DNA of 64,000 bases. It comes from Halegenticoccus soli (lineage in GTDB: Archaea; Halobacteriota; Halobacteria; Halobacteriales; Haloferacaceae). Position 1 is the first letter of the stretch. Each line of letters begins with the position of its first letter. The DNA lies in NCBI RefSeq assembly GCF_002844195.1, contig NZ_PEND01000002.1, positions 620,001 through 684,000 of the forward strand, in the 5' to 3' direction. Both the position numbers and the translations under genes were made by a program. This document shows positions 11,153-15,295 of the stretch, piece after piece. The notes below the pieces were generated by a model that saw nothing but the letters and a program-made list of their open reading frames with translations, did no database searches and had not been told where the DNA came from.

Positions 11153-12541
11153 TCACCGCCGGTACGGCACCATCTCCACCGGCCCGTCGGGCCGAAGCGT
11201 GATGGACGGTGAAAACGACAGCCCCGGATCGACGGGATCGAGCGTCCACTCCCGCAGGATCGTCGCGAGGACGAGCCGCGCCTCCATCGAGGCGAACCGG
11301 TCGCCGATGCACCGGCGGGGACCGCCGCCGAAGGGGAAGTACGCGAAGCGCGGCAGCGACCGCTCGAACTCGTCCGTCCACCGCTCCGGACGGAACGTCT
11401 CCGGATCGTCGTAGGTGTCGGGGTCGCGGTGGACGACCCACTGCTGGAAGGCGACTGTGCTGCCGGCCGGGATGCGGTAGCCGCCGATTTCGTCGTCCTC
11501 GGCGGCTTCGCGGAGCAGTTCGTACACCGGCGGGTGAGCCCGCATCGTCTCCTTCACCGTCTTCTCGACGTACGGCAGGGCGCTGAGGTCGTCGGCCGTC
11601 GGCGGCCGGCCGCCCGGTCCGGAGGCGCTTCCCGCTCCGCCGCCTCCGAGAACGTCGTCGAGTTCGGCGCGGAGCGCCGCCGCGGCCTCGGGGTTTCGCG
11701 AGAGCAGGTGCAGCGCGTACGTCAGCGTCAGGGCGGTCGTCTCGTGGCCGGCGAGGAGCAGGGTGACGACTTCGTCGCGGATCTGCTCGCGCGAGCTTTC
11801 GACCCCCGCGTCCGCGTCGCGGAGGAGGGAGACGACGTCCGATCGGTCGCCGGCGTCGCGGTCGCGGCGTTCGTCGATGATCCGGTCGGCGACGGCGTCG
11901 AGGTCGGACAGCGCGCGGCGGTACCGGCGGTGCCCCGGCGTCGGAATCCAGGTCGGCACGTCTATCGGGCGGCGAACCGTGCGCTCGACGTGATCCATGA
12001 CGGCCTCCAGCGCGTCGCCGATCTCCGCTTCGACGTCGCGGACGTCGACGTCGAAGAGCGCCTTCGCGGCGATTTCGACCGTGAGCTGCATCATGTCCGC
12101 GTGGACGTCGCGCGCCTCGCCGTCCTCCCACGACCGGAGCGTCCGCTCGGCGTAGTCGGTCATTACTTCGGCGTACCGGGTGAGCTGTTCGGGGTGGAAC
12201 GCGGGCTGGATCGCGCGGCGCTGCGCGCGCCAGAACGCGCCCTCGCTCGTGAGCAGGCCGTTGCCGACCACCGGACCGAGCGCCTCCTGGAAGCGCTCAC
12301 CTTTGACGTACCCGCCGTTGTTGTGAACGAGGACGCGCTCTACGTGTTTCGGATCGCTGAGCTGGTAAAACCCCTCTCCGCCCAGTTCGTAGTAGGCGAC
12401 CGGACCGTGCTCCCTGGCCGTCTCGACGAAAAAGTCCAGCGGATCTCTCGCGTACTGGTGGGTGTTTCCGATCACCGGGAGGCCGGTCGGCCCCGGCGGG
12501 CGACGGGTCGCCGTCGTTCGATCGCCGTCTACCTTCGCCAT
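11153..12541 (-). CDS. Cytochrome P450 (CYP174-like)
   Basis: This 462-residue heme monooxygenase has all core motifs: the I-helix oxygen-binding AGHETTA, the K-helix ExxR (KETMR), the PERF-like FRPERW, and the heme-binding loop FPFGGGPRRCIG with axial ligand C411. It resembles the bacterial/CYP102-like haloarchaeal P450s of the CYP174 group by overall sequence, a tentative match from memory. ATG 12541 is chosen because the PPGPTGLPVIGN segment typical of P450 N termini starts shortly after it. No membrane anchor is visible, so the protein is probably soluble. No ferredoxin or reductase gene is adjacent; the redox partner must be elsewhere. Confidence 0.92.
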   Translation of the reverse strand: MAKVDGDRTTATRRPPGPTGLPVIGNTHQYARDPLDFFVETAREHGPVAYYELGGEGFYQLSDPKHVERVLVHNNGGYVKGERFQEALGPVVGNGLLTSEGAFWRAQRRAIQPAFHPEQLTRYAEVMTDYAERTLRSWEDGEARDVHADMMQLTVEIAAKALFDVDVRDVEAEIGDALEAVMDHVERTVRRPIDVPTWIPTPGHRRYRRALSDLDAVADRIIDERRDRDAGDRSDVVSLLRDADAGVESSREQIRDEVVTLLLAGHETTALTLTYALHLLSRNPEAAAALRAELDDVLGGGGAGSASGPGGRPPTADDLSALPYVEKTVKETMRAHPPVYELLREAAEDDEIGGYRIPAGSTVAFQQWVVHRDPDTYDDPETFRPERWTDEFERSLPRFAYFPFGGGPRRCIGDRFASMEARLVLATILREWTLDPVDPGLSFSPSITLRPDGPVEMVPYRR

Positions 12542-12618
12542 CGTCGGTCGTGAGTCGGGTCGCCGCGGGGAAACCGTTTCTGCCGTCCGTCGGCGACCCG
12601 ACCGCCGCCGAATTTCGG

Positions 12619-13980
12619 CTATCCGATCACCCTCGAATCCATGACGCTGATCCACTCGCGGCCGTTCCAGATGGCGAGCCCCCACAGGGCGTCGCCCGAC
12701 CCGTCGTGCACGCCGAGGTCGCCGCGGTACGCGCCCGGCACGCCGCGGAGGTCGGTCTCCTGGACGACGCCGCTGCTCCGGACGCGCTCGGCTCCGTCCA
12801 TCCGGAGGAACGTGGTGTCGTCGAGCGGCACGTGCGTCGCCCGGTGGACGTCGACGTCGCGGGCGTCCCGGACGAGGACGAACGCGTCCTCGTAGTTCCG
12901 GTACGTCGAGTTCTTGATCGACACGTTCGGCGCGCCGGAGACGGCGATGCACCCGTACGACTGCGCCCGGCCGTTCGGCGGATTCCTGAAGAACGCCCCC
13001 TGGAAGTAGCACGCCTCGACCGTGAATCCGGACGCCGTGCTGCTCATGAAGATCGCGTAGGGGTAGTCGAGTTTCGCCCCGTTCCCCTCGAAGTACGCGC
13101 CGTAGATGCTCTGTGTCGCGCCCGAACGGGCGTCGACGCCGAAGCCGCCGTTGCCCTGGATGGTGCCGCCGTGCCACCGCGTCGCGAACCCGCGCATGTG
13201 AACGCCCGGAAGCGTCGCGTTCCCGTACCGCCCGTTGAACATGGCGTGACAGCCGTAGAACGACGTGCTGTTCGGGACAGCATCGGTTTCAAGGCGGAAC
13301 CCGTTGCCGCCGCAGCCCCACGCGACGCAGTACCGAAAGTTGACCCCGAAGGTCCGCTTTTCCAGGCCGTCGTCTGTGGTGTACTCGTCGATCTGCACCC
13401 CGTGGGACCCCGTCTGGTACAGGATGAGGTTCTGGTACATCGAGTAGGGGGCCGCGCGGATCCGCAGGCCGACGTTCCCGCCGGTGATCTTGAGATTTCT
13501 GACGATGGGATTGTTGCGGTAGTCGCTCTGGCCCCGGCCGATGACCTCGATCACGTTCGCGTCGACGTCGCCCGCGTCGATCACCGTCCCCGACGGGTGA
13601 CCGCCCGAGAGCGTGACTTCCTTGACCCGGTTGTCGAGGACGATCGGGAACTGCTCGCCCGCCTCCTGGGCGTCGTACGACGAGTGGACGTAGACCTTGT
13701 CGCCGTCCTGCGCGTCGTTCCAGGCGGCCTCGATCGTCTCGTAGGCGAGTCCCTTCCCGACGATGAGTCGACCGCCGAGGTTCAGATCGGGGCCGATCTG
13801 AATAGCCGGGTTCTGCGCGTCCGCGCTCGTCGCCGCGTACGGTCCGGCGCTCCCGCGGTCGAGGGCCGCCCGCGCCCGGCCGCTTCCGAGCGCGAGCGAT
13901 CCGACGCCGGCCGCCTGAAGGAACCCGCGCCGCGATAGATCCCGCCTCTCCGTCTCCCGTCGTTGTCCGTTATTATTTAT
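12619..13980 (-). CDS. Tat-exported right-handed beta-helix protein with no standard start codon
   Basis: The protein shows parallel beta-helix repeats (NPIVRNLKITGGNVGLRIR, YQNLILYQTGSHGVQI, HMRGFATRWHGGTIQG, NVSIKNSTYRNYED), as in pectate-lyase-like or polysaccharide-binding proteins. In-frame upstream sequence encodes a clear Tat signal (RRDLSRRGFLQAAGVGSLALGSG). Yet between the in-frame stop at 14011-14013 and this signal there is no ATG, GTG or TTG; the first standard start is GTG 13584, well inside the domain. Codon 13980-13978 is ATA and would give an ideal N terminus (xNNNGQRRETERRDLSRRGF), with a TTTAAA box 27-32 bases upstream. Either an AUA start or a lost ATG is likely. I give the ATA boundary. 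Confidence 0.7.
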   Translation of the reverse strand: MNNNGQRRETERRDLSRRGFLQAAGVGSLALGSGRARAALDRGSAGPYAATSADAQNPAIQIGPDLNLGGRLIVGKGLAYETIEAAWNDAQDGDKVYVHSSYDAQEAGEQFPIVLDNRVKEVTLSGGHPSGTVIDAGDVDANVIEVIGRGQSDYRNNPIVRNLKITGGNVGLRIRAAPYSMYQNLILYQTGSHGVQIDEYTTDDGLEKRTFGVNFRYCVAWGCGGNGFRLETDAVPNSTSFYGCHAMFNGRYGNATLPGVHMRGFATRWHGGTIQGNGGFGVDARSGATQSIYGAYFEGNGAKLDYPYAIFMSSTASGFTVEACYFQGAFFRNPPNGRAQSYGCIAVSGAPNVSIKNSTYRNYEDAFVLVRDARDVDVHRATHVPLDDTTFLRMDGAERVRSSGVVQETDLRGVPGAYRGDLGVHDGSGDALWGLAIWNGREWISVMDSRVIG

Positions 13981-14311
13981 TTTACGATATGAAAATACAA
14001 TACTTCTAGTTTAAATTCTTTGATTTTGTGTTCATTATAGAATTGACGCTCCCGGATAAATCATCGATCGGATTCAACCGACGGAGAACCGGTGCTCGAC
14101 GGCCCGTCCCGCCGTCGTCCGCAGACCGGGGACGGACTCGACGGCGGGATCGGGCGACAGTGATCGCCGATTCGGAGGCGGCTGTTGGCGGTTTGGAGGC
14201 AATAGTTGCCGTTTGCGCCTCAGTGTACAACCCGTGACTATGTAGCTCAAAGTGAAAGACGTACGACGTTTTTATCCCGGTCCGGCCCCCACCGACGGAC
14301 GAACCGAACGC
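13981..14311. other. AT-rich promoter region between the beta-helix gene and the phosphoesterase
   Basis: About 330 bases without a supported gene. The left part (13975-14045) is strongly AT-rich and carries the TTTAAA box at 14010-14015 for the leftward gene. The right part has GTTTTTATC near 14268-14276, a likely TATA box for the phosphoesterase. A very short ATG frame (MNTKSKNLN, 14035 leftward) ends at once and is not supported. Confidence 0.5.
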
Positions 14312-15295
14312 ATGGATCGACAAGACAACGAACTAGTGCTCGCACGACTCGCCCGCCCGACCGCCGACGAGACGACGTTCGCCGTCGTCTCCGACGCGCA
14401 CGTCGCGCCCGGCGCGGAGGGGACGTGGAAGGTGTTTCACCGGACGGAGCGGCGGCTCCGAACCGTCGTCGAGGACGCGAACCGCTCCGGCGTCGACGGC
14501 CTCGTCTTCGCCGGCGACCTGACGAAGGACGGCGCGCCCGAGGAGTTCGACCGCGTCGACGAGGTGCTCGCCGATCTCGACGCGTCCCTCTTCGCGGTCC
14601 CCGGCAACCACGACGTACCCAAGTCGTTCGACCCCCACGAGACCCCGCCGCTCGACGCGTTCGTCCGGAAGTACACCCCCGGATCGCTGCCGTACCGGAC
14701 GCGCCTCGGCGGGCTCGACCTCGTCGGGCTGAACAGCGCCGCGGCCGAGGACGGATCGCTGGCGGGGACGCACGCCGGCCGCCTGGACGACGCGCAGCTC
14801 GACTGGCTCGACCGGACGCTCGATCCGGACGCGCCGACGATCGTCGTGCTGCACCACCCCCTCAGCGACGTGGCCGACCTCGTCGCCGAGTTCCCGCCGG
14901 CGGATCACTTCCAGCTGCGGAACGCGGCCGCGGTCGGCGAGCGACTCGCCGACAACGAGGTCGACCTCGTGGTCTCCGGACACGTCCACTGGCCGACCGC
15001 GGCTCGCGTCAACGGGGTGACGCAGGTGACGACTCCGGCCGCGTGTTCGTTCCCGCAGGCGTACCTGCTCGTCCGCGTCTCCCCGGAGGGGACGACGGTG
15101 TCGATGGTCCCGCTCTCCGACGCCGCTGGATTCGAAGAGGCGTGCTCGTACGCCCGGGAGGACGGCGGGCGCGACGGTGCGCTCGTCGAGTGCGTCGACC
15201 GGGGGTACTTCGGCGACTGCCCGCTGGTCGACGAGCGCGAGGCGTCGCTGACCGCCGCACAGGCGGACGGCGGTCCGGCCGTCCTGTATCGCTGA
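14312..15295 (+). CDS. Calcineurin-like metallophosphoesterase
   Basis: This 327-residue enzyme has the full set of metallophosphoesterase metal-binding motifs: SDAHV, GDLT, GNHDV, LHHPL and GHVHWP, which bind two metal ions and hydrolyse a phosphomonoester or diester. There is no signal peptide or membrane segment, so it is probably cytoplasmic. ATG 14312 is preferred over upstream in-frame codons because a TATA-like GTTTTTATC lies about 35-45 bases before it. The substrate is not predictable; cyclic nucleotides, nucleotides or phosphoproteins are all possible for this family. Downstream genes are separated by about 100 bases. Confidence 0.88.
   Translation: MDRQDNELVLARLARPTADETTFAVVSDAHVAPGAEGTWKVFHRTERRLRTVVEDANRSGVDGLVFAGDLTKDGAPEEFDRVDEVLADLDASLFAVPGNHDVPKSFDPHETPPLDAFVRKYTPGSLPYRTRLGGLDLVGLNSAAAEDGSLAGTHAGRLDDAQLDWLDRTLDPDAPTIVVLHHPLSDVADLVAEFPPADHFQLRNAAAVGERLADNEVDLVVSGHVHWPTAARVNGVTQVTTPAACSFPQAYLLVRVSPEGTTVSMVPLSDAAGFEEACSYAREDGGRDGALVECVDRGYFGDCPLVDEREASLTAAQADGGPAVLYR

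Follow-up and report, generated by a model that had tools for sequence, protein, structure and literature searches.

A haloarchaeal Tat-signal beta-helix gene without a canonical start codon, perhaps a recently silenced paralogue

RESULTS

A reading frame without a canonical start codon

We analyzed a stretch of 64,000 nucleotides (the window) from Halegenticoccus soli (contig NZ_PEND01000002.1, positions 620,001 to 684,000). On its minus strand lies a gene for a beta-helix protein whose frame and Tat signal are intact, and which has no ATG, GTG, or TTG codon ahead of that signal. The explanation that we favor, and to which we give a little more than an even chance, is that it is a freshly start-less, probably silent or almost silent, redundant member of a paralogue family.

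The features of the locus are collected in Table 1. The frame runs from its TAG stop codon back to an in-frame TAA, with no internal stop codon. When the DNA was read directly, none of the 24 codons between the TAA (14013-14011) and the codons for LSRRGFLQ was ATG, GTG, or TTG. The codons following the TAA are ACT AGA AGT ATT GTA TTT TCA TAT CGT AAA ATA AAT AAT AAC GGA CAA CGA CGG; the frame continues with GAG ACG GAG AGG CGG GAT CTA TCG CGG CGC, of which the last three encode SRR, and goes on to the TAG at 12621-12619. The in-frame near-cognate codons ahead of the twin arginines are ATT at 14001, ATA at 13980, ACG at 13953, and AGG at 13947, and thus the ATA is not unique. An ATG at 14035 lies one phase off and is followed by a stop after 9 codons.

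The first canonical codon in frame is the GTG at 13584-13582 (translation, INNNGQRRETERRDLSRRGFLQAAGVGSLALGSG), which falls within the conserved fold. An open reading frame caller limited to ATG, GTG, and TTG would set the start here and miss the Tat signal. Translation from this GTG alone was considered and is unlikely to yield a working protein, because both the signal and conserved residues would be lost; those conserved in 12 of the 12 sequences of alignment A2 include G69, Y80, W87, G93, D94, H99, Y102, and H128. An earlier note on this DNA had described a Tat signal in frame with the protein, and only non-start codons between the TAA and the twin arginines. Both descriptions hold, the second down to its coordinates and codons, and the first with a TIGR01409 score of 17.3 bits for the protein against a cut-off of 16.7 (20.4 bits in the genome search).

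Table 1 Features of the beta-helix locus (positions within the window)
Feature	Positions	Strand	Basis or remark
Cytochrome P450, downstream neighbor	11153..12541	-	Kept at the site in the same-genus genome G001
Stretch without detected homology to G001	12504..14229	-	G001 has an HTH_10 regulator here; both flanks 77% identical
Beta-helix open frame, ATA 13980 to TAG 12621-12619, 453 residues	12619..13980	-	PF13229; 17 homologues
GTG, first canonical in-frame codon (residue 133)	13582..13584	-	A start here drops the signal and the initial portion of the fold
Tat signal LSRRGFLQAAGVGSLALGSG, twin arginines 13932-13927	13879..13938	-	TIGR01409; twin arginines in 14 of 17 other homologues
ACG, rival candidate for the lost start; 7 residues ahead of the twin arginines	13951..13953	-	Third-position GC
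ATA, likeliest place of a start now lost (or weak and non-canonical); 16 residues ahead of the twin arginines	13978..13980	-	14 Tat-bearing homologues, 9 to 23 residues, median 17
TTTAAA, TATA-like box, 35 bases upstream of the ATA	14010..14015	-	Weak
In-frame TAA, upstream limit of the frame	14011..14013	-	DNA read
Calcineurin-like phosphoesterase, divergent neighbor	14312..15295	+	Kept at the site in G001

Start codons of other Tat genes and of homologues

Tat-signal genes of the same genome (G000) were taken as matches to TIGR01409 at an E value of 0.05 or better, all of them above its cut-off, with 150 of 183 first-look candidates scored, and the upstream DNA was read for all 59 listed loci. 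A canonical codon stands in frame between the preceding stop codon and the motif in 58 of them, the window gene being the sole exception. ATG occurs among the last four candidate codons in 56 of these 58, and the other two (L060 and L076) have GTG.

All 17 other homologues that we examined have a canonical in-frame codon ahead of the conserved part. In most it is ATG; L020, L028, and L030 have GTG there, and L004 has TTG and GTG. Left out of the 17 were the partial, distant matches L011, L012, L017, L018, and L019 (34 to 44% identity, with alignments that start at query residue 65 or later), two plasmid matches, and L021 to L025, L027, and L029, which duplicate L009, L010, L014, L015, L016, L013, and L020. 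Because canonical starts are so general in both sets, the absence of one from the beta-helix gene is a real anomaly, and apparently an isolated loss rather than a habit of the organism. The ATA codon itself is rare in genes (0 of 440 in the beta-helix gene and 3 of 2,570 in seven genes of the window). The suggestion in the earlier note that this organism uses AUA as a start is thus supported neither by the Tat genes nor by codon usage.

Which codon was the start

The former start site was most likely the ATA at 13980. A start there would give an n-region (the residues ahead of the twin arginines) within the range of the 14 Tat-bearing homologues and close to their median (Table 1), and this homologue-like length favors the ATA. 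Composition favors the ACG, because third-position GC, which is 91% for the gene, rises from 3 of the 9 codons between the ATA and the ACG to 9 of the 11 codons from the ACG on. An AT-rich run also lies 31 to 17 bases upstream of the ACG, and very short n-regions are common among the Tat genes of this genome. However, the n-region given by the ACG is shorter than that of any of the 14 homologues, and the 23 residues given by the ATT at 14001 equal the homologue maximum.

The distance of the TTTAAA from the ATA would be compatible with a leader only a few bases long and lends the ATA weak support; in a count of Tat genes of the genome without L076 and L078, just 8 of 56 had a TATA-like hexamer at -38 to -24, versus 3 of 56 at a control position (-68 to -54). 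In a comparison of the 301 bases upstream with five genomes, the matches listed were, besides the locus itself, only short ones, the best of them with an E value of 6e-4 over 32 bases. These short, scattered matches were read as chance, and a shared mobile or promoter element was rejected.

Local DNA similarity to the nearest paralogue (on contig C11, described below) starts only at the S-R-R codons, at 13935 of the window. Because of this, the n-region is not confidently alignable base by base, and a single change from ATG to ATA can only be supposed. The earlier note had put the ATA exactly where an ATG would be expected, had called the TTTAAA correctly placed, and had offered silencing by one such change as an alternative to an AUA start. 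The position of the ATA is indeed homologue-like, making it the best candidate and not the sole one (ATT, ACG, and AGG also stand in frame). The box is spaced as a very short leader would have it, although such hexamers are weak evidence in this genome. Of the two alternatives, silencing through a lost start codon is the more probable. That a single change caused it is only a supposition, because no same-species sequence was found in which the ATA codon could be compared between strains, G001 has no such gene at the site, the similarity to C11 begins too late, and the ACG is a rival.

The protein family

The gene is one of a small haloarchaeal family, most of whose members are Tat-exported right-handed beta-helix proteins. 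Its product matches PF13229 (Beta_helix) with 39.4 bits (gathering cut-off, 25.9); the Tat profile PF10518 stays under its cut-off (15 versus 22.7). With regard to Tat export, the twin arginines and a hydrophobic stretch are present, and a canonical start ahead of the signal is absent. The nearest named relative is a Halogranum amylolyticum protein (L021, 74% identity); a further one, annotated as a right-handed parallel beta-helix repeat-containing protein, is encoded on a plasmid of Halorientalis sp. IM1011 (NZ_CP019068.1, 45%). The family is rare, being found in 4 of 170 genomes of the taxonomic family at an E value of 1e-60 and in 5 of 99 relatives at 1e-10, the organism's own genome counted in each case. 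A contig search with alignment A1 returned 11 loci, and with one protein as the query it returned none.

An AlphaFold model made from 12 sequences is rich in short strands and has a mean pLDDT of 73.4, with residues 1 to 67 below 50. Although there was no sequence match to solved structures at an E value of 0.01, Foldseek gave as its best match ORF18 of Geobacillus virus E2 (E value, 4.4e-5), and then GH87 glucanases, tailspikes, mannuronan epimerases, and polysaccharide lyases; among the best 50 matches listed, the query TM-scores were 0.16 to 0.42 and the identities at most 16%. Matches in a viral structure library were likewise pectate-lyase-like and tail proteins. The likeness to these phage proteins (ORF18 and the tailspikes), GH87 alpha-1,3-glucanase, alginate lyase, and mannuronan C-5 epimerase is one of fold only and carries no catalytic assignment. 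A viral origin was considered and rejected: no match was found in a phage collection at an E value of 1e-5, and no relative was confirmed in viral contigs. The right-handed beta-helix fold is common among carbohydrate-active proteins. From the fold matches and the neighbors of the paralogues, we infer that the protein may act on a surface or extracellular polysaccharide.

The site in a same-genus genome

In G001 the P450 and phosphoesterase genes (78% and 77% identity) lie close together with a different gene between them, an HTH_10 regulator whose best matches in G000 are only 34 to 36% identical. Homology to G001 ends at positions 14230 and 12503 of the window. Because it breaks off at these two points, the beta-helix gene is, by this comparison, part of a lineage-specific local replacement, in which either the state of the window or that of G001 could be the older.

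Paralogues in the genome

Genome G000 (4.6 Mb in 15 contigs, 99.5% complete, contamination score of 4.75, same family as G043 and G059) has six other full-length paralogues, plus a distant one on C10 (35%, one stop codon). The paralogue on C11 (L008 and L003) is intact and spans the contig ends. This contig, of 95,633 bases, has an exact 114-base overlap between its ends with the intact paralogue across the junction, and for that reason is probably a circular plasmid. Neighbors of the C11 paralogue are phosphodiesterase and glycosyltransferase genes and two kinds of regulator.

On contig C5 (L108 and L109; G000:C5:389966-405956) are two tandem pairs of paralogues, separated by about 10.5 kb. 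Both pairs consist of an upstream gene with a Tat signal and a downstream gene without the twin arginines, and one of the pairs is accompanied by two sugar-nucleotide dehydratase/epimerase genes and a subtilase. The paralogue on C13 (L002, G000:C13:16131-17411) has a scrambled Tat core, SRHTSQQ (SRHTSQQTPGAESLAND), whereas the frame on either side matches that of C11, as if compensating indels had occurred.

Decay, selection, and possible gene conversion

The body of the window gene has hardly decayed. The dN/dS of the mature part is 0.34 versus C11 and 0.24 versus C13, compared to 0.18 for C11 and C13 and 0.22 for the Halogranum pair L013/L010. Polarized with L009 as the outgroup, lineage-specific residues number 8 in the window copy, 6 in C11, and 22 in C13; at columns invariant in the other six sequences, the window copy departs at 3 of 157, C11 at 2 of 156, and C13 at 13 of 167. 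Unpolarized, the ratios of non-synonymous to synonymous changes in the mature part are 37.8:26.3 for the window copy, 39.2:62.8 for C13, and 19.7:22.3 for C11. The window copy is thus richer in replacements than C13 (Fisher P = 0.010) but not clearly richer than C11 (P = 0.32), and consequently these numbers prove neither full constraint nor free decay. Until recently, the gene was probably constrained, and, because its body is nearly undamaged, the loss of the start looks recent.

The order in which the three copies branched depends on the outgroup. With L009 as the outgroup, C11 and C13 share 20 residues, the window copy and C11 share 8, and the window copy and C13 share 6; the corresponding numbers are 10, 6, and 2 with L013 and 7, 9, and 3 with L010, so that C11 groups with C13 when L009 is used and with the window copy when L010 is used.

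The synonymous differences that separate the window copy from C11 lie in clusters (51 of the 348 sites form the longest run free of them, P = 0.0046; for the variance among windows, P = 0.0002), and nucleotide identity per 40-codon window ranges from 0.60 to 0.97. Those of the control pair L013/L010 are not clustered (P = 0.125 for the run and 0.549 for the variance), and the other pairs are marginal (C11 and C13, run P = 0.016 and variance P = 0.18; window copy and C13, run P = 0.059 and variance P = 0.018). The clustering against C11, which the control pair lacks, suggests gene conversion between the chromosomal copy and the plasmid-like copy; such conversion would also slow visible decay.

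DISCUSSION

In the explanation that we favor, the start codon would have been lost, likeliest where the ATA now stands, while frame, Tat signal, and conserved residues stayed intact. The absence of a canonical codon, the homologue-like distance of the ATA, the low level of decay, and the redundancy offered by six paralogous genes all argue for it. In Haloferax volcanii, 72% of protein-coding transcripts are reported to be leaderless, and the 118 leaderless transcripts with a GUG start to have about half the average coverage (PMC4983044). In a report on a haloarchaeal hsp70 short-leader reporter, GUG was 5 to 37 times weaker than AUG and UUG was undetectable (PMC4574771). A short-leader or leaderless mRNA without AUG would therefore be expected to be translated very poorly in a haloarchaeon, and for this reason the window copy is probably silent or nearly so; the intact paralogues on the plasmid-like C11 and on contig C5 may supply the function. 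However, an intact frame with few replacements is equally to be expected of a translated gene, and a missing canonical start is a lesion that disables a gene only if no other codon serves. If the gene is silent, it captures cleanly the point at which a gene is lost, with frame, signal, and conserved residues intact and the start gone.

Alternatively, the gene may still be weakly translated from the AUA at 13980, on a short-leader mRNA begun about 25 to 30 bases after the TTTAAA, the low yield being tolerated or selected. The position of the ATA, the upstream box, and the nearly undamaged gene body agree with this as well, and non-canonical starts have been reported elsewhere. AUC, AUU, and AUA starts are called rare (PMC9094748), but in Staphylococcus aureus AUA starts are described for infC, from ribosome density, and for ccpN and citZ, from reporters; in poor medium the non-canonical sites tested reached about 10% of the AUG level, and in rich medium ccpN reached as much as 30% (PMC13009471). 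For a leaderless mRNA of Halobacterium salinarum, a GUC start is on record (Srinivasan 2006, as cited in PMC4574771). Against this, three of the S. aureus sites are described with extended Shine-Dalgarno motifs (PMC13009471), a haloarchaeal short-leader mRNA loses most translation with GUG and all that is detectable with UUG (PMC4574771), and every one of the 17 homologues has a canonical start. Within the listed literature on archaeal, haloarchaeal, and leaderless AUA starts, a body with few subscription papers, we found no AUA start in a haloarchaeon. Functional AUA initiation in the window gene is possible and less likely than silence, and we regard the explanation as a whole as unlikely. 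Its fullest form, in which initiation at AUA on a short-leader mRNA yields an exported haloarchaeal protein, at a deliberately low level, and the members of its paralogue family exchange sequence by gene conversion, seems rather improbable. If the gene is translated, it would be a natural archaeal AUA start in a probable user of short leaders, where reporters make AUG nearly obligatory, and the codon demands of short-leader initiation would become testable with one simple reporter.

That the lost or weak start was the ACG at 13953 or the ATT at 14001 instead of the ATA, which would leave the biology the same, is quite doubtful given the n-region lengths set out above. An error in sequencing or assembly, either affecting the start codon itself or, as an indel of one base, hiding a link to the ATG at 14035, is very unlikely. 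The assembly comprises 15 contigs and has the contamination score of 4.75 given above, and the ATG opens its 9-codon frame just one phase off; but a lone substitution in 1.36 kb of an otherwise intact gene would, in our judgment, be unusual, and a link to that ATG would extend the n-region beyond that of every one of the 14 homologues, by way of codons unlike those of the gene. We think it highly improbable that the start-less gene is kept as a silent donor that undergoes gene conversion with the intact paralogues on the plasmid-like contig and the chromosome: the clustered differences to C11, its uneven identity, and the three paralogues without twin arginines (C13 and two on C5) would fit such a role, but the clustering points to exchange and not to a retained donor, the two pairs that include C13 are only marginal, and one genome only is concerned.

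Comparison with known systems

The PF13229 homologues resemble the window gene in family and length, and 14 of the 17 have the Tat signal, but all 17 have the canonical start that the window copy lacks. Starting from the favored explanation, a recently start-less paralogue, the gene is comparable to young pseudogenes that arose by loss of a start codon, which likewise have an intact frame, low decay, and intact paralogues; in the window gene, silence is no more than probable. The S. aureus genes infC, ccpN, and citZ are bacterial, come from a set of sites of which three are described with extended Shine-Dalgarno motifs, and are proven by ribosome profiling or reporters, whereas the window gene is archaeal, probably has a short leader, and is at most a candidate for such translation. 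In infC, ccpN, and citZ, as in the window gene, an AUA stands in place of AUG ahead of an intact frame.
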